Assembly (NCBI GenBank): GCA_946699065.1
Contig: CAMPDV010001489.1
Location: 1-64,000, forward strand
DNA length: 64,000 nt
Reading direction: 5' to 3'
From: Loxodes magnus
Lineage: Eukaryota > Ciliophora > Karyorelictea > Loxodida > Loxodidae
Every line of letters begins with the position of its first letter. Positions within the stretch are counted from its first letter, which is position 1. The position numbers and the translations under genes were made by a program. The notes beneath the pieces are model-generated. The model was not told the DNA's origin. It saw only the letters and a list, made by a program, of their open reading frames with translations, and did not search any database. Below are positions 1-64,000 of this stretch, in pieces.

Positions 1-3000
1 CCATAGTCTCACCGTCTAATCTCCACTTCCCGATACGATGAACTCTGAATCACTGGATATAGCCACAGCATATACATAACTAGTGTGACCACTCATGGTC
101 TTACAGGTACCTGTCTTGACGTCCCATAGTCTCACCGTATAATCTCCACTTCCCGATACGATGAACTCTGAATCACTGGATATAGTCACAGCACATACAT
201 AACTAGTGTGACCACTCATGGTCTTACAGGTACCTGTCTTGACGTCCCATAGTCTCACCGTCTAATCTCCACTTCCCGATACGATGAACTCTGAATCACT
301 GGATATAGCCACAGCATATACATAACTAGTGTGACCACTCATGGTCTTACAGGTACCTGTCTTGACGTCCCATAGTCTCACCGTCTAATCTCCACTTCCC
401 GATACGATGAACTCTGAATCACTGGATATAGCCACAGCACATACCTAATGTGTGTGACCACTCATGGTCTTACAGGTACCTGTCTTGACGTCCCATAGTC
501 TCACCGTCTAATCTCCACTTCCCGATACGATGAACTCTGAATCACTGGATATAGTCACAGTACATACCTAATGTGTGTGACCACTCATGGTCTTACAGGT
601 ACCTGTCTTGACGTCCCATAGTCTCACCGTCTAATCTCCACTTCCCGATACGATGAACTCTGAATCACTGGATATAGCCACAGCATATACATAACTAGTG
701 TGACCACTCATGGTCTTACAGGTACCTGTCTTGACGTCCCATAGTCTCACCGTATAATCTCCACTTCCCGATACGATGAACTCTGAATCACTGGATATAG
801 CCACAGCATATACATAACTAGTGTGACCACTCATGGTCTTACAGGTACCTGTCTTGACGTCCCATAGTCTCACCGTCTAATCTCCACTTCCCGATACGAT
901 GAACTCTGAATCACTGGATATAGCCACAACATATACAGAATTAGTGTGACCACTCATGGTCTTACAGGTACCTGTCTTGACGTCCCATAGTCTCACCGTA
1001 TAATCTCCACTTCCCGATACGATGAACTCTGAATCACTGGATATAGTCACAGCACATACATAACTAGTGTGACCACTCATGGTCTTACAGGTACCTGTCT
1101 TGACGTCCCATAGTCTCACCGTCTAATCTCCACTTCCCGATACGATGAACTCTGAATCACTGGATATAGCCACAGCATATACATAACTAGTGTGACCACT
1201 CATGGTCTTACAGGTACCTGTCTTGACGTCCCATAGTCTCACCGTATAATCTCCACTTCCCGATACGATGAACTCTGAATCACTGGATATAGTCACAGCA
1301 CATACCTAATGTGTGTGACCACTCATGGTCTTACAGGTACCTGTCTTGACGTCCCATAGTCTCACCGTCTAATCTCCACTTCCCGATACGATGAACTCTG
1401 AATCACTGGATATAGCCACAGCATATACATAACTAGTGTGACCACTCATGGTCTTACAGGTACCTGTCTTGACGTCCCATAGTCTCACCGTCTAATCTCC
1501 ACTTCCCGATACGATGAACTCTGAATCACTGGATATAGCCACAGCATATACATAACTAGTGTGACCACTCATGGTCTTACAGGTACCTGTCTTGACGTCC
1601 CATAGTCTCACCGTATAATCTCCACTTCCCGATACGATGAACTCTGAATCACTGGATATAGTCACAGCACATACATAACTAGTGTGACCACTCATGGTCT
1701 TACAGGTACCTGTCTTGACGTCCCATAGTCTCACCGTATTATCATAACTTCCCGATACGATGAACTCTGAATCACTTGATATAGCCACAACATATACATA
1801 ACTAGTGTGACCACTCATGGTCTTACAGGTACCTGTCTTGACGTCCCATAGTCTCACCGTATAATCTCCACTTCCCGATACGATGAACTCTGAATCACTG
1901 GATATAACCACGGCATATACATAACTAGTGTGACCACTCATGGTCTTACAGGTACCTGTCTTGACGTCCCATAGTCTCACCGTATAATCTGCACTTCCCG
2001 ATACGATGAACTCTGAATCACTGGATATAGCCACAGCATATACATAACTAGTGTGACCACTCATGGTCTTACAGGTACCTGTCTTGACGTCCCATAGTCT
2101 CACCGTATTATCATAACTTCCCGATACGATGAACTCTGAATCACTGGATATAGTCACAGCACATACCTAATGTGTGTGACCACTCATGGTCTTACAGGTA
2201 CCTGTCTTGACGTCCCATAGTCTCACCGTATAATCTCCACTTCCCGATACGATGAACTCTGAATCACTGGATATAGCCACAGCATATACCTAATGTGTGT
2301 GACCACTCATGGTCTTACAGATACCTGTCTTGACGTCCCATAGTCTCACCGTCTAATCTCCACTTCCCGATACGATGAACTCTGAATCACTGGATATAGC
2401 CACAGCATATACATAACTAGTGTGACCACTCATGGTCTTACAGGTACCTGTCTTGACGTCCCATAGTCTCACCGTATAATCTCCACTTCCCGATACGATG
2501 AACTCTGAATCACTGGATATAGTCACAGCACATACATAACTAGTGTGACCACTCATGGTCTTACAGGTACCTGTCTTGACGTCCCATAGTCTCACCGTCT
2601 AATCTCCACTTCCCGATACGATGAACTCTGAATCACTGGATATAGCCACAGCATATACATAACTAGTGTGACCACTCATGGTCTTACAGGTACCTGTCTT
2701 GACGTCCCATAGTCTCACCGTATAATCTCCACTTCCCGATACGATGAACTCTGAATCACTGGATATAGTCACAGCACATACCTAATGTGTGTGACCACTC
2801 ATGGTCTTACAGGTACCTGTCTTGACGTCCCATAGTCTCACCGTATAATCTGCACTTCCCGATACGATGAACTCTGAATCACTGGATATAGCCACAGCAT
2901 ATACATAACTAGTGTGACCACTCATGGTCTTACAGGTACCTGTCTTGACGTCCCATAGTCTCACCGTCTAATCTCCACTTCCCGATACGATGAACTCTGA

Positions 3001-6000
3001 ATCACTGGATATAGCCACAGCATATACATAACTAGTGTGACCACTCATGGTCTTACAGGTACCTGTCTTGACGTCCCATAGTCTCACCGTATAATCTCCA
3101 CTTCCCGATACGATGAACTCTGAATCACTGGATATAGCCACAGATCTTACTAAACTAGTGTGACCACTCATGGTCTTACAGGTACCTGTCTTGACGTCCC
3201 ATAGTCTCACCGTCTAATCTCCACTTCCCGATACGATGAACTCTGAATCACTGGATATAGCCACAGCATATACATAACTAGTGTGACCACTCATGGTCTT
3301 ACAGGTACCTGTCTTGACGTCCCATAGTCTCACCGTATAATCTCCACTTCCCGATACGATGAACTCTGAATCACTGGATATAGTCACAGCACATACCTAA
3401 TGTGTGTGACCACTCATGGTCTTACAGGTACCTGTCTTGACGTCCCATAGTCTCACCGTCTAATCTCCACTTCCCGATACGATGAACTCTGAATCACTGG
3501 ATATAGCCACAGCATATACCTAATGTGTGTGACCACTCATGGTCTTACAGGTACCTGTCTTGACGTCCCATAGTCTCACCGTCTAATCTCCACTTCCCGA
3601 TACGATGAACTCTGAATCACTGGATATAGCCACAGCATATACATAACTAGTGTGACCACTCATGGTCTTACAGGTACCTGTCTTGACGTCCCATAGTCTC
3701 ACCGTATTATCATAACTTCCCGATACGATGAACTCTGAATCACTGGATATAGTCACAGCACATACCTAATGTGTGTGACCACTCATGGTCTTACAGGTAC
3801 CTGTCTTGACGTCCCATAGTCTCACCGTCTAATCTCCACTTCCCGATACGATGAACTCTGAATCACTGGATATAGCCACAGCATATACCTAATGTGTGTG
3901 ACCACTCATGGTCTTACAGATACCTGTCTTGACGTCCCATAGTCTCACCGTCTAATCTCCACTTCCCGATACGATGAACTCTGAATCACTGGATATAGCC
4001 ACAGCATATACATAACTAGTGTGACCACTCATGGTCTTACAGGTACCTGTCTTGACGTCCCATAGTCTCACCGTATAATCTCCACTTCCCGATACGATGA
4101 ACTCTGAATCACTGGATATAGTCACAGCACATACCTAATGTGTGTGACCACTCATGGTCTTACAGGTACCTGTCTTGACGTCCCATAGTCTCACCGTATA
4201 ATCTCCACTTCCCGATACGATGAACTCTGAATCACTGGATATAGCCACAGCATATACATAACTAGTGTGACCACTCATGGTCTTACAGGTACCTGTCTTG
4301 ACGTCCCATAGTCTCACCGTCTAATCTCCACTTCCCGATACGATGAACTCTGAATCACTGGATATAGCCACAGCATATACATAACTAGTGTGACCACTCA
4401 TGGTCTTACAGGTACCTGTCTTGACGTCCCATAGTCTCACCGTATAATCTCCACTTCCCGATACGATGAACTCTGAATCACTGGATATAGTCACAGCACA
4501 TACCTAATGTGTGTGACCACTCATGGTCTTACAGGTACCTGTCTTGACGTCCCATAGTCTCACCGTCTAATCTCCACTTCCCGATACGATGAACTCTGAA
4601 TCACTGGATATAGCCACAGCATATACCTAATGTGTGTGACCACTCATGGTCTTACAGATACCTGTCTTGACGTCCCATAGTCTCACCGTCTAATCTCCAC
4701 TTCCCGATACGATGAACTCTGAATCACTGGATATAGCCACAGCATATACATAACTAGTGTGACCACTCATGGTCTTACAGGTACCTGTCTTGACGTCCCA
4801 TAGTCTCACCGTATAATCTCCACTTCCCGATACGATGAACTCTGAATCACTGGATATAGTCACAGCACATACATAACTAGTGTGACCACTCATGGTCTTA
4901 CAGGTACCTGTCTTGACGTCCCATAGTCTCACCGTATTATCATAACTTCCCGATACGATGAACTCTGAATCACTTGATATAGCCACAACATATACATAAC
5001 TAGTGTGACCACTCATGGTCTTACAGGTACCTGTCTTGACGTCCCATAGTCTCACCGTCTAATCTCCACTTCCCGATACGATGAACTCTGAATCACTGGA
5101 TATAGCCACAGCATATACCTAATGTGTGTGACCACTCATGGTCTTACAGGTACCTGTCTTGACGTCCCATAGTCTCACCGTATAATCTGCACTTCCCGAT
5201 ACGATGAACTCTGAATCACTGGATATAGCCACAGCATATACATAACTAGTGTGACCACTCATGGTCTTACAGGTACCTGTCTTGACGTCCCATAGTCTCA
5301 CCGTATTATCATAACTTCCCGATACGATGAACTCTGAATCACTGGATATAGTCACAGCACATACCTAATGTGTGTGACCACTCATGGTCTTACAGGTACC
5401 TGTCTTGACGTCCCATAGTCTCACCGTATAATCTCCACTTCCCGATACGATGAACTCTGAATCACTGGATATAGCCACAGCATATACCTAATGTGTGTGA
5501 CCACTCATGGTCTTACAGATACCTGTCTTGACGTCCCATAGTCTCACCGTCTAATCTCCACTTCCCGATACGATGAACTCTGAATCACTGGATATAGCCA
5601 CAGCATATACATAACTAGTGTGACCACTCATGGTCTTACAGGTACCTGTCTTGACGTCCCATAGTCTCACCGTATAATCTCCACTTCCCGATACGATGAA
5701 CTCTGAATCACTGGATATAGCCACAGCATATACCTAATGTGTGTGACCACTCATGGTCTTACAGGTACCTGTCTTGACGTCCCATAGTCTCACCGTCTAA
5801 TCTCCACTTCCCGATACGATGAACTCTGAATCACTGGATATAGCCACAGCATATACATAACTAGTGTGACCACTCATGGTCTTACAGGTACCTGTCTTGA
5901 CGTCCCATAGTCTCACCGTATAATCTCCACTTCCCGATACGATGAACTCTGAATCACTGGATATAGTCACAGCACATACCTAATGTGTGTGACCACTCAT

Positions 6001-8805
6001 GGTCTTACAGGTACCTGTCTTGACGTCCCATAGTCTCACCGTATAATCTGCACTTCCCGATACGATGAACTCTGAATCACTGGATATAGCCACAGCATAT
6101 ACATAACTAGTGTGACCACTCATGGTCTTACAGGTACCTGTCTTGACGTCCCATAGTCTCACCGTCTAATCTCCACTTCCCGATACGATGAACTCTGAAT
6201 CACTGGATATAGCCACAGCATATACATAACTAGTGTGACCACTCATGGTCTTACAGGTACCTGTCTTGACGTCCCATAGTCTCACCGTATAATCTCCACT
6301 TCCCGATACGATGAACTCTGAATCACTGGATATAGCCACAGATCTTACTAAACTAGTGTGACCACTCATGGTCTTACAGGTACCTGTCTTGACGTCCCAT
6401 AGTCTCACCGTCTAATCTCCACTTCCCGATACGATGAACTCTGAATCACTGGATATAGCCACAGCATATACATAACTAGTGTGACCACTCATGGTCTTAC
6501 AGGTACCTGTCTTGACGTCCCATAGTCTCACCGTATAATCTCCACTTCCCGATACGATGAACTCTGAATCACTGGATATAGTCACAGCACATACCTAATG
6601 TGTGTGACCACTCATGGTCTTACAGGTACCTGTCTTGACGTCCCATAGTCTCACCGTCTAATCTCCACTTCCCGATACGATGAACTCTGAATCACTGGAT
6701 ATAGCCACAGCATATACCTAATGTGTGTGACCACTCATGGTCTTACAGGTACCTGTCTTGACGTCCCATAGTCTCACCGTCTAATCTCCACTTCCCGATA
6801 CGATGAACTCTGAATCACTGGATATAGCCACAGCATATACATAACTAGTGTGACCACTCATGGTCTTACAGGTACCTGTCTTGACGTCCCATAGTCTCAC
6901 CGTATTATCATAACTTCCCGATACGATGAACTCTGAATCACTGGATATAGTCACAGCACATACCTAATGTGTGTGACCACTCATGGTCTTACAGGTACCT
7001 GTCTTGACGTCCCATAGTCTCACCGTCTAATCTCCACTTCCCGATACGATGAACTCTGAATCACTGGATATAGCCACAGCATATACCTAATGTGTGTGAC
7101 CACTCATGGTCTTACAGATACCTGTCTTGACGTCCCATAGTCTCACCGTCTAATCTCCACTTCCCGATACGATGAACTCTGAATCACTGGATATAGCCAC
7201 AGCATATACATAACTAGTGTGACCACTCATGGTCTTACAGGTACCTGTCTTGACGTCCCATAGTCTCACCGTATAATCTCCACTTCCCGATACGATGAAC
7301 TCTGAATCACTGGATATAGCCACAGATCTTACTAAACTAGTGTGACCACTCATGGTCTTACAGGTACCTGTCTTGACGTCCCATAGTCTCACCGTCTAAT
7401 CTCCACTTCCCGATACGATGAACTCTGAATCACTGGATATAGCCACAGCATATACATAACTAGTGTGACCACTCATGGTCTTACAGGTACCTGTCTTGAC
7501 GTCCCATAGTCTCACCGTATAATCTCCACTTCCCGATACGATGAACTCTGAATCACTGGATATAGTCACAGCACATACCTAATGTGTGTGACCACTCATG
7601 GTCTTACAGGTACCTGTCTTGACGTCCCATAGTCTCACCGTCTAATCTCCACTTCCCGATACGATGAACTCTGAATCACTGGATATAGCCACAGCATATA
7701 CCTAATGTGTGTGACCACTCATGGTCTTACAGGTACCTGTCTTGACGTCCCATAGTCTCACCGTATAATCTGCACTTCCCGATACGATGAACTCTGAATC
7801 ACTGGATATAGCCACAGCATATACATAACTAGTGTGACCACTCATGGTCTTACAGGTACCTGTCTTGACGTCCCATAGTCTCACCGTATTATCATAACTT
7901 CCCGATACGATGAACTCTGAATCACTGGATATAGCCACAGCACATACCTAATGTGTGTGACCACTCATGGTCTTACAGGTACCTGTCTTGACGTCCCATA
8001 GTCTCACCGTATAATCTCCACTTCCCGATACGATGAACTCTGAATCACTGGATATAGCCACAGCATATACCTAATATGTGTGACCACTCATGGTCTTACA
8101 GGTACCTGTCTTGACGTCCCATAGTCTCACCGTATAATCTGCACTTCCCGATACGATGAACTCTGAATCACTGGATATAGCCACAGCATATACATAACTA
8201 GTGTGACCACTCATGGTCTTACAGGTACCTGTCTTGACGTCCCATAGTCTCACCGTATTATCATAACTTCCCGATACGATGAACTCTGAATCACTGGATA
8301 TAGTCACAGCACATACCTAATGTGTGTGACCACTCATGGTCTTACAGGTACCTGTCTTGACGTCCCATAGTCTCACCGTCTAATCTCCACTTCCCGATAC
8401 GATGAACTCTGAATCACTGGATATAGCCACAGCATATACATAACTAGTGTGACCACTCATGGTCTTACAGGTACCTGTCTTGACGTCCCATAGTCTCACC
8501 GTATAATCATAACTTCCCGATACGATGAACTCTGAATCACTGGATATAGTCACAGCACATACATAACTAGTGTGACCACTCATGGTCTTACAGGTACCTG
8601 TCTTGACGTCCCATAGTCTCACCGTCTAATCTCCACTTCCCGATACGATGAACTCTGAATCACTGGATATAGCCACAGCATATACATAACTAGTGTGACC
8701 ACTCATGGTCTTACAGGTACCTGTCTTGACGTCCCATAGTCTCACAGTCTAATCTCCACTTCCCGATACGATGAACTCTGAATCACTGGATATAGCCACA
8801 GCATA
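1..8805 (-). CDS. Giant WD40-repeat protein, frame block 5 (C-terminal-most part in window, partial)
   Basis: About 71.6 blades running off base 1, so the natural stop codon is not seen. All in-frame stops I noticed here are TAG, at D-x-T (plus GTCTAATC) and HTH- or HTY-x-V (plus TACCTAAT). I saw no TGA. The variant set is narrower than further right: GDYT, YDNT and ADYT, with T-S-Y, N-S-V and S-L-V-R-S openings. A shared G-to-I change at residue 36 (plus ACAGATACC) marks units near 2,318, 3,918, 4,657, 5,517 and 7,116. The block is separated from block 4 by a single-base loss near 8,805. If TAG is sense, this block is fully open. Confidence 0.6.
1123..7290 (-). repeat. Higher-order repeat, 26 units (3,198 bp), two copies
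   Basis: Rare markers recur 3,198 bp apart: CACTTGATAT (1,773 and 4,971), the GATCTTACTAAAC blade (3,143 and 6,341), and the ADYT and SLVRS pair (2,782-3,210 and 5,980-6,408). A few units differ between copies, so the duplication is followed by some conversion or mutation. A further 8-unit shift (984 bp) copies the 6,166-6,408 segment to 7,150-7,392. Confidence 0.85.
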
Positions 8806-42638
<33,833 letters not shown>

Positions 42639-42640
<2 letters not shown>

Positions 42641-42648
42641 TGTGTGTG
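42639..42648 (-). other. Frame change: 4-nt gain (GT dinucleotide expansion)
   Basis: Plus strand reads CTAGTGTGTGTGACC where other units read CTAGTGTGACC, a gain of four bases in a GT run. It looks like a hybrid of the two common haplotypes, CTAGTGTGACC (TSY) and TAATGTGTGTGACC (HTH), joined out of register, or a two-repeat slippage. It moves the frame by +1. Confidence 0.85.
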
Positions 42649-60477
<17,829 letters not shown>

Positions 60478-60479
<2 letters not shown>

Positions 60480-60487
60480 TGTGTGTG
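60478..60487 (-). other. Frame change: second identical 4-nt gain
   Basis: Same CTAGTGTGTGTGACC junction as at 42.6 kb, but in a different neighbourhood: the left-hand side here carries GATAATAC, while the first carries GATCATAC. It therefore arose separately, or was moved by conversion over a tract shorter than one unit. Confidence 0.85.
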
Positions 60488-62328
60488 ACCACTCATGGTC
60501 TTACAGGTACCTGTCTTGACGTCCCATAGTCTCACCGTCTAATCTCCACTTCCCGATACGATGAACTCTGAATCACTGGATATAGCCACAGCATATACTC
60601 AATCTGTGTGCCCACTCATGGTCTTACAGGTACCTGTCTTGACGTCCCATAGTCTCACCGTATAATCTCCACTTCCCGATACGATGAACTCTGAATCACT
60701 GGATATAGCCACAGCATATACATAACTAGTGTGACCACTCATGGTCTTACAGGTACCTGTCTTGACGTCCCATAGTCTCACCGTATAATCTCCACTTCCC
60801 GATACGATGAACTCTGAATCACTGGATATAGCCACAGCATATACATAACTAGTGTGACCACTCATGGTCTTACAGGTACCTGTCTTGACGTCCCATAGTC
60901 TCACCGTATAATCTCCACTTCCCGATACGATGAACTCTGAATCACTGGATATAGCCACAGATCATACATAACTAGTGTGACCACTCATGGTCTTACAGGT
61001 ACCTGTCTTGACGTCCCATAGTCTCACCGTATAATCTCCACTTCCCGATACGATGAACTCTGAATCACTGGATATAGCCACAGCATATACCTAATGTGTG
61101 TGACCACTCATGGTCTTACAGGTACCTGTCTTGACGTCCCATAGTCTCACCGTCTAATCATAACTTCCCGATACGATGAACTCTGAATCACTGGATATAG
61201 CCACAGATCATACCTAATGTGTGTGACCACTCATGGTCTTACAGGTACCTGTCTTGACGTCCCATAGTCTCACCGTCTTATCTGCACAACCAGATACGAT
61301 GAACTCTGAATCAATGGATATAGCCACAGCATATACATAACTAGTGTGACCACTCATGGTCTTACAGGTACCTGTCTTGACGTCCCATAGTCTCACCGTA
61401 TAATCTGCACTTCCCGATACGATGAACTCTGAATCACTGGATATAGCCACAGCATATACATAACTAGTGTGACCACTCATGGTCTTACAGGTACCTGTCT
61501 TGACGTTCCATAGTCTCACCGTATAATCTCCACTTCCCGATACGATGAACTCTGAATCACTGGATATAACCACGGCATATACATAACTAGTGTGACCACT
61601 CATGGTCTTACAGGTACCTGTCTTGACGTCCCATAGTCTCACCGTCTAATCATAACTTCCCGATACGATGAACTCTGAATCACTGGATATAACCACGGCA
61701 TATACATAACTAGTGTGACCACTCATGGTCTTACAGGTACCTGTCTTGACGTCCCATAGTCTCACCGTATAATCTCCACTTCCCGATACGATGAACTCTG
61801 AATCACTGGATATAACCACGGCATATACATAATGTGTGTGACCACTCATGGTCTTACAGGTACCTGTCTTGACGTCCCATAGTCTCACCGTCTTATCTGC
61901 ACTTCCCGATACGATGAACTCTGAATCACTGGATATAGCCACAGCATATACATAACTAGTGTGACCACTCATGGTCTTACAGGTACCTGTCTTGACGTCC
62001 CATAGTCTCACCGTATAATCTCCACTTCCCGATACGATGAACTCTGAATCACTGGATATAGTCACAGCAGATACATAACTAGTGTGACCACTCATGGTCT
62101 TACAGGTACCTGTCTTGACGTCCCATAGTCTCACCGTCTAATCATAACTTCCCGATACGATGAACTCTGAATCACTGGATATAGCCACAGCATATACATA
62201 ACTAGTGTGACCACTCATGGTCTTACAGGTACCTGTCTTGACGTCCCATAGTCTCACCGTATAATCTCCACTTCCCGATACGATGAACTCTGAATCACTG
62301 GATATAACCACGGCATATACATAACTAG
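60488..62328 (-). CDS. Giant WD40-repeat protein, frame block 2 (partial)
   Basis: Exactly 15 blades lie between two identical 4-nt gains. It carries some of the rarer variants of the array. A unit at about 61,280-61,300 reads S-G-C-A-D-K-T (S22 changed to C, with both flanking bases altered). A unit near 62,068 has V-S-AVT instead of V-C-AVT. TGA at HTD-x-V is linked to a synonymous GGT to GGG change in Gly1 near 60,610; the same haplotype recurs at 11,150, 20,260 and several later sites, so it is a propagated variant and not a one-off error. The short length of this block compared with its neighbours makes it the best place to test whether the frame changes are real. Confidence 0.55.
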
Positions 62329-62336
62329 TGTGTGTG
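62327..62336 (-). other. Frame change: third identical 4-nt gain
   Basis: Same junction again, 15 units from the second one and on yet another haplotype (CGGCATATAC to the left). Together the last two changes sum to +8, so the blocks outside them also stay out of register with each other. Confidence 0.85.
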
Positions 62337-64000
62337 ACCACTCATGGTCTTACAGGTACCTGTCTTGACGTCCCATAGTCTCACCGTCTTATCTGCACTT
62401 CCCGATACGATGAACTCTGAATCACTGGATATAACCACGGCATATACATAACTAGTGTGACCACTCATGGTCTTACAGGTACCTGTCTTGACGTCCCATA
62501 GTCTCACCGTATAATCTGCACTTCCCGATACGATGAACTCTGAATCACTGGATATAGCCACAGATAATACATAACTAGTGTGACCACTCATGGTCTTACA
62601 GGTACCTGTCTTGACGTCCCATAGTCTCACCGTATAATCTGCACTTCCCGATACGATGAACTCTGAATCACTGGATATAGCCACAGATAATACATAACTA
62701 GTGTGACCACTCATGGTCTTACAGGTACCTGTCTTGACGTCCCATAGTCTCACCGTATAATCTGCACTTCCCGATACGATGAACTCTGAATCACTGGATA
62801 TAGCCACAGATAATACATAACTAGTGTGACCACTCATGGTCTTACAGGTACCTGTCTTGACGTCCCATAGTCTCACCGTATAATCTCCACTTCCCGATAC
62901 GATGAACTCTGAATCACTGGATATAGCCACAGATCATACATAACTAGTGTGACCACTCATGGTCTTACAGGTACCTGTCTTGACGTCCCATAGTCTCACC
63001 GTATAATCTGCACTTCCCGATACGATGAACTCTGAATCACTGGATATAGCCACAGCATATACTCAATCTGTGTGACCACTCATGGTCTTACAGGTACCTG
63101 TCTTGACGTCCCATAGTCTCACCGTATAATCATAACTTCCCGATACGATGAACTCTGAATCACTGGATATAGCCACAGATAATACATAACTAGTGTGACC
63201 ACTCATGGTCTTACAGGTACCTGTCTTGACGTTCCATAGTCTCACCGTCTAATCATAACTTCCCGATACGATGAACTCTGAATCACTGGATATAGCCACA
63301 GATCATACATAACTAGTGTGACCACTCATGGTCTTACAGGTACCTGTCTTGACGTCCCATAGTCTCACCGTCTTATCATAACTTCCCGATACGATGAACT
63401 CTGAATCACTGGATATAACCACGGCATATACATAACTAGTGTGACCACTCATGGTCTTACAGGTACCTGTCTTGACGTCCCATAGTCTCACCGTATAATC
63501 TCCACTTCCCGATACGATGAACTCTGAATCACTGGATATAGCCACAGCATATACTCAATCTGTGTGACCACTCATGGTCTTACAGGTACCTGTCTTGACG
63601 TCCCATAGTCTCACCGTATTATCATAACTTCCCGATACGATGAACTCTGAATCACTGGATATAGTCACAGCACATACATAACTAGTGTGACCACTCATGG
63701 TCTTACAGGTACCTGTCTTGACGTCCCATAGTCTCACCGTATAATCTCCACTTCCCGATACGATGAACTCTGAATCACTGGATATAGCCACAGATCATAC
63801 ATAACTAGTGTGACCACTCATGGTCTTACAGGTACCTGTCTTGACGTCCCATAGTCTCACCGTATAATCTCCACTTCCCGATACGATGAACTCTGAATCA
63901 CTGGATATAGCCACGGCATATACATAACTAGTGTGACCACTCATGGTCTTACAGGTACCTGTCTTGACGTCCCATAGTCTCACCGTATAATCTCCACTTC
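62337..64000 (-). CDS. Giant WD40-repeat protein, frame block 1 (N-terminal-most part in window, partial)
   Basis: About 13.5 WD40 blades. The coding sequence enters from beyond base 64,000, so its start codon and any N-terminal domain are outside the window. The block includes a run of near-identical blades with V-L-SVA and A-D-Y-T (62,515-62,883), evidence of recent single-unit duplication. TAG interrupts the standard frame at D-x-T. TGA occurs at HTD-x-V and at V-x-SVA (for example 63,301-63,303 and 63,793-63,795). Read as Gln and Trp these give ordinary WD40 residues. One unit has W30-N31 instead of WD (GACGTT on plus, near 63,230), a change found in several dozen units of the array. The block ends on the left at a 4-nt gain at 62,329-62,336, which puts the next block in another frame. 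If that gain is an assembly error, this block and the next are one reading frame. Confidence 0.6.

Follow-up and report, generated by a model that had tools for sequence, protein, structure and literature searches.

Positions 1 to 64,000 of contig CAMPDV010001489.1 from Loxodes magnus (64,000 nucleotides, the window) form a single tandem array of WD40 blades, encoded on the minus strand, in which hundreds of in-frame TAG and TGA codons sit at a handful of hypervariable positions. There is about an even chance, judging from the sequence, that the organism carrying the array reads TAG and TGA as amino acids, most likely with UAG decoded as glutamine and UGA as tryptophan. Sense reassignment is somewhat favoured over the leading alternative, a decayed array that uses the standard code, and we infer from comparison with fungal receptors that the blades would have belonged to a receptor-type protein.

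The repeat has a period of 123 nucleotides (520.2 copies, 94% matches), spans positions 1–64000 without interruption and is open at both window ends. Segmentation of the minus strand gives 519 full units, of which 515 are 123 nucleotides long, three are 127 and one is 122, together with two partial units at the ends; each 123-nucleotide unit encodes one 41-residue WD40 blade. The first full unit, unit 0 (63765..63887, minus strand), may serve as an example, with TGA as its codon for column 31 (63795–63797). The other five reading frames were rejected, as each contains at least 1,160 stops. The blades carry the GH...WD pattern, and the longest stretch that is open under the standard code, an open reading frame of 388 amino acids (30825..31991, minus strand), is matched by the Pfam WD40 family PF00400 in nine stretches with an E value of 6.5e-97, which places the array in the WD40 β-propeller family. 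An AlphaFold model of a read-through stretch of seven blades is an all-strand propeller with 28 strands and a mean pLDDT (predicted local distance difference test) of 96.2, although a propeller predicted with such confidence would be expected for stop-free blades too. In the first blade of the model, columns 6–8 lie in the turn between strands 2–5 and 9–13, column 29 immediately precedes strand 30–35 and column 31 is the second residue of that strand.

The codon counts cover the 21,115 codons of the in-register units, of which there are 515, the four units with indels being excluded throughout. These units contain 278 in-frame TAG and 112 in-frame TGA codons, and no TAA; an earlier reading of this DNA (the original prediction) had claimed hundreds of the first two in a 41-residue blade and an absence of the third, and both claims are borne out. 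At least one TAG or TGA occurs in 288 of the 515 units, the longest clean run being at most eight units, and the same codons include no CAA, no CAG and 514 TGG. The stops were said to be confined to about six positions; in fact seven columns carry them, yet 375 of the 390 fall in columns 6 (four TGA), 8 (152 TAG), 29 (118 TAG and 29 TGA) and 31 (72 TGA), the remainder being in columns 20 (five TGA), 39 (two TGA) and 40 (eight TAG). All of the stop variants present in at least 10 units are in these four columns. Typical cases are the TAG of column 8 at 63249..63251 (minus strand), in the context D-TAG-TVRLW, and the TGA of column 29 at 63555..63557 (minus strand), adjoining Asp28 in the context GHTD-TGA-V. 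The caution that duplication lowers the number of independent events was well placed: a minimum spanning tree for each column reduces the 390 stop codons to about eight column-level origins among 71 changes, a share slightly above the 5.5% that random change would give (P = 0.04).

The diversity of the blade is concentrated in columns 6, 8, 28, 29, 31, 32 and 34, and the conserved residues in between (Asp7, Val30 and Val33) barely vary. It follows the codons, in that the share of variance explained by codon grouping is 0.60 for the coding frame and 0.47 and 0.50 for the shifted frames. Among 35 changes in the variable columns, just one is synonymous, 23 are nonsynonymous and 11 are to or from a stop, against an expected synonymous share of 17% (P = 0.012). 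The seven variable columns account for 18 of the variants found in at least 25 units, four of these being stops (TAG8, TAG29, TGA29 and TGA31), and one such variant lies outside them, namely, the synonymous ACA at column 27. The latter shows near-complete linkage with CAT28, GAT28 or TAT28 (164 of 165 units), the third base of codon 27 hitchhiking with the variable codon 28.

This distribution bears on the leading alternative, in which a hypervariable WD40 gene was inactivated, stops then arose neutrally, and unequal crossing-over amplified them, producing a satellite-like block with over 500 units. We regard this as a serious possibility, though it falls short of an even chance. If a neutral phase had produced the stops, the other columns should hold far more neutral variants than they do, and neutral stops should not favour four surface codons. 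As the seven variable columns were picked from the same data, the test was repeated with four columns defined from the literature; a null of neutral decay then gives P values between 5e-5 and 2e-3 at eight thresholds of copy number, which were set after the data had been seen. Considering the opportunities for nonsense alone, which needs fewer assumptions, the placement has a P of 0.017. It is thus unlikely that the stops in this array were placed regardless of function.

To ask which amino acids the two codons would encode, blades from other genomes were compiled. Searches of plasmids, genome contigs and viral contigs found relatives with 28–55% identity, and 28 loci were fetched (10 plasmid, nine genome-contig and nine viral-contig), the 10 plasmid loci coming from 60 listed among 340 matching records. 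Blades with more than four gaps and duplicate blades were dropped, leaving 26 of the 28 loci (L010 and L027 gave none), and the relatives' genomes were assumed to use the standard code; no in-frame stop occurs in 223 blades from these 26 loci. Since the loci were found with queries derived from the window, the profile is biased to cysteine in column 20. Expressed as ranges over 156 blades and over 222 distinct blades (smoothed), column 8 in the other genomes is glutamine in 17–22% and lysine in 15–21%, column 29 tryptophan in 22–30% and glutamine in 5–8%, column 31 tryptophan in 27–35%, and column 40 lysine in 24–34% and glutamine in 20–23%. One set of scores compared all 20 residues, with one vote per column, and another compared preselected candidates only. 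In the former, TAG scores 0.53 for glutamine, 0.23 for lysine and 0.18 for arginine, and random one-step placement matches the observed fit of TAG to glutamine with a P of 0.02; the score of TAG for glutamate is 0.01–0.02 across the two sets. Over columns 6, 29 and 31, TGA scores 0.79 for tryptophan. The best-fitting assignment is therefore TAG as glutamine, with lysine and arginine close enough that the profile cannot tell them apart, and TGA as tryptophan; we adopt this pair because of the fit at the high-copy columns and because it has precedent.

A number of observations weigh against this reading. For TAG, columns 8 and 29 alone give glutamine 0.30, arginine 0.29 and glycine 0.16. For TGA, all five columns together give glycine 0.86 and tryptophan 0.03, a result that arises because column 39 is nearly always glycine; TGA at columns 20 and 39 (seven units, where Cys20 and Ser39 are the residues of this array) suits cysteine and glycine rather than tryptophan, and the placement of TGA on tryptophan-rich columns is non-significant (P = 0.09). 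The glutamine codons CAA and CAG are never used, and TGG is restricted to column 13. The stop-type changes amount to only about eight origins. Outside the variable columns, 22 nonsynonymous, three nonsense and 11 synonymous events resemble neutral change (P = 0.18), and the structural residues Gly4, Trp13, Asp14 and His26 also show changes. Finally, four of the 519 units, on which the original prediction was silent, break the frame, three by +4 and one by −1. The latter is unit 447 (8773..8894, 122 nucleotides, minus strand); the former, each of 127 nucleotides on the minus strand and with the insertion in a CA tract, are unit 12 (62285..62411), unit 27 (60436..60562) and unit 172 (42597..42723). 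On account of these four units, no single frame crosses the whole window, and the longest in-frame segment is of 274 units, although it is possible that the indels are assembly errors.

Many of these points are what a decayed array would lead one to expect: the frame-breaking indels, the relaxed changes with their three nonsense origins outside the variable columns, where the synonymous excess is not significant, the 388 residues of the longest standard-code reading frame, and the want of CAA and CAG anywhere and of TGG at the variable columns. Nor would decay need any special cause for the missing TAA. The original prediction had placed the stops on consensus tryptophan and glutamine sites, and for TAG the placement agrees with this (P = 0.02), but for TGA the excess falls short of significance. 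Its assignment of a code with TAG as glutamine and TGA as tryptophan gains from the placement of the stops in hypervariable codons at which these two residues are common, and is weakened by the lysine and arginine alternatives and by the preference for glycine over the five TGA columns.

The +4 insertion (CACACACACTAGTTATG) is common to units 12, 27 and 172, which differ in background; it looks as if it arose by out-of-register exchange between units of the ACT-AGT and ACA-CAT types, or through errors in the assembly consensus. Two composition indices, TpA/ApT at 0.95 and (CpA+TpG)/(ApC+GpT) at 0.92, are both on the repeat-induced point mutation (RIP) side of the usual cut-offs. An origin by RIP-like mutation or deamination was not adopted, as the indices reflect the 123-nucleotide unit, and the conserved TGG13 and CAC26 are largely intact (in 514 and 502 of the 515 units, respectively).

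The absence of TAA had been argued to favour reassignment, on the grounds that in a decaying gene TAT should change to TAA about as often as to TAG. Reckoned by independent events, this argument is weak: about 0.7 TAA is expected in 71 changes, with a probability of 0.49 that there would be none, and for the variable columns that probability is 0.18–0.20; conditioned on the eight stop origins it is 0.20, and conditioned on the five that lie in variable columns, 0.07. Moreover, 13 and 620 TAA occur in the two sense-strand frames that are not read, so that scarcity of TAA in one frame of this repeat is not remarkable on its own. TAA could here terminate translation, encode an amino acid or simply have gone unsampled.

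Three further explanations were considered. Recombination within polymorphic codons (as when TAT and AAG yield TAG) would put stops into variable columns without making them sense codons, and TAG8, TGA6 and TGA31 can each be derived from two sense codons present in the same column in at least 10 units. It predicts, however, that 57% of the products would be sense recombinants, whereas those listed each occur in zero units; it also predicts TAA, which does not occur, more often than TGA, and TAG29 has no such parent codons. We consider it improbable. Bypass at the RNA level within the standard code, either by strong stop readthrough or by A-to-I editing of TAG and TGA to TGG (tryptophan), is a shade more improbable still. 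A single A-to-I edit converts TAG or TGA, but not TAA, to TGG, and one rule would thereby cover both codons without the third; yet tryptophan is nearly absent from the TAG columns 8 and 40 of the other genomes' blades (probability 0.001 in each). The least likely of all is another sense pair, such as TAG as tyrosine with TGA as cysteine, under which five of the eight stop origins would be silent third-base changes. TAG is tyrosine in Mesodinium and TGA is cysteine in Euplotes, although we know of no code in which the two are paired. The closest single-step sources are TAT for TAG and TGT for TGA, and TGA at Cys20 would be silent; against this, in the scores restricted to preselected candidates, tyrosine for TAG reaches 0.0002 over columns 8, 29 and 40 (0.08 when column 40 is left out), and cysteine for TGA reaches 0.014 over columns 6, 20, 29 and 31.

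Under the favoured reassignment, the organism would translate UAG and UGA as amino acids, and the array would have been built from blades of one of its genes, a hypervariable WD40 gene of receptor type. Unequal crossing-over would drive the concerted evolution of the blades, and diversifying selection would act on surface codons 6 and 8, in the b–c turn, and 29 and 31, at and just past the d–a loop, on the propeller's binding face. At these positions, TAG and TGA would be ordinary sense codons of the repertoire and, as such, would have multiplied along with the blades that carry them. We do not claim that all of the more than 500 blades are currently translated as one protein; given the frameshifts and the relaxed low-copy variants, part of the array may well be untranslated. 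Reassignment is plausible on the strength of few independent events. Considerably less likely is the fuller version, in which a nuclear code has UAG as glutamine, UGA as tryptophan and UAA as the sole stop, and the freed codons feed the diversity of receptor blades through a run of more than 500 of them. Nuclear codes with UAG as glutamine and UGA as tryptophan are already known; to our knowledge, there is no precedent for one that combines these meanings with UAA as the only stop.

The blades have a clear parallel in the NWD/HNWD receptors of Podospora anserina (het-d, het-e and het-r), which likewise comprise near-identical WD40 blades in concerted evolution. Codons 7, 9, 25 and 27 of the NWD/HNWD genes are reported to be under strong positive selection; they form pairs that flank a conserved site and belong to the binding face (PMC1805685). 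Their 2/16/2 spacing corresponds to columns 29, 31, 47 (equivalent to 6) and 49 (equivalent to 8) of the present blade, although we draw this correspondence from spacing and not from an alignment. A second source gives positions 10, 11, 12, 14, 30, 32 and 39 as those used for HNWD classification (PMC12222747). By spacing, positions 11, 12, 14, 30 and 32 equate to variable columns 28, 29, 31, 6 and 8, whereas positions 10 and 39 hardly vary in amino acid here, and columns 32 and 34 are without counterpart among the seven. Near-identical blades and diversity at four surface codons, the HNWD hallmarks, are thus both found in the array, with the codons matched by spacing only. The number of blades differs, as reactive HNWD alleles are described as having about 10–11 blades of 42 residues (PMC12222747), whereas there are at least 519 of 41 residues here, with both ends open. 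TAG and TGA at the selected codons are, relative to the HNWD genes, a feature of this array. By analogy, the array may act as HNWD receptors do, through a hypervariable WD40 sensor that evolves in concert (PMC4986451 and PMC2873952). The window, which lies wholly within the array, contains no NACHT or HET domain, such as HNWD/NWD-type receptors carry upstream of their blades; scans of it for tRNAs, and against Rfam at the gathering threshold, gave no match.

Among the matches listed, the closest relatives are bacterial WD40 proteins with NB-ARC, NACHT or caspase domains (from cyanobacteria, Streptomyces and others), at 49% identity over the full query and, in pieces, 55% over 79% of it; unlike the array, they have no in-frame stops in the blades examined. 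The aligned relatives mostly have blades of 42 residues, with an extra residue after the Cys of TGTC, versus 41 here and in L010. The IMG/VR contigs L020–L028 encode WD40 array proteins with 32–48% identity. A blastn search of phages with 3,000 bases of the window's 64,000 gave no match, viral contigs yielded none to a peptide query or to a degenerate DNA pattern, and an exact 39-base pattern from the unit found none in viral or genome contigs. Along the array, the unit types are unevenly distributed: TGA31 is present in 72 of the 351 in-register units among units 0–353 and in none of the 164 later ones, whereas over the same intervals TAG8 climbs from 78/351 to 74/164 and ACT34 from 26/351 to 45/164. 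Similarity at whole-unit lags drops with distance, from 94% at one unit to 80% at 33, the latter value being partly due to indel phase.

Among known codes, NCBI table 28 is that of Condylostoma magnum, 27 that of Parduczia sp. and 31 that of Blastocrithidia. The meanings proposed here are those of the nuclear code of Amoebophrya sp. ex Karlodinium veneficum, which is contextual, with UAA and UAG as glutamine and UGA as tryptophan (PMC12005148, PMC6394959). In that organism, 58% of the in-frame stops are UAA, 32.3% UAG and 9.7% UGA (PMC12005148); that the commonest of the three has no counterpart here is a further point against the parallel, albeit the absence is weak evidence. In C. magnum and Parduczia sp., all three stops are translatable, UAA being sense too, unlike in this TAA-free array; UGA as tryptophan was established in C. 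magnum by mass spectrometry, with UAA and UAG predicted to be glutamine (PMC4967479). Blastocrithidia shares UGA as tryptophan with our proposal, and there UAA is the only genuine terminator (PMC12153298); its UAR codons, however, are read as glutamate, which fits TAG poorly here. A narrow search of the literature on genetic codes and WD40 arrays, confined to parts of the papers, gave no description of a comparable array.

If the array is decayed, it illustrates that, in a repeat evolving in concert, stops can gather at variable codons and imitate reassignment, and hence that inference of a genetic code from such repeats should count independent origins rather than copies. Either way, it is unusual for a WD40 block to exceed 500 blades and to have variable codons like those of HNWD genes. 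Should TAG and TGA indeed be read as amino acids, the code of this array would join those already described with UAG and UGA as sense codons in Amoebophrya ex K. veneficum, Condylostoma, Parduczia and Blastocrithidia. The finding would then add another organism with reassigned stops, and one in which the freed codons would feed the diversity of a receptor of the self/non-self type.

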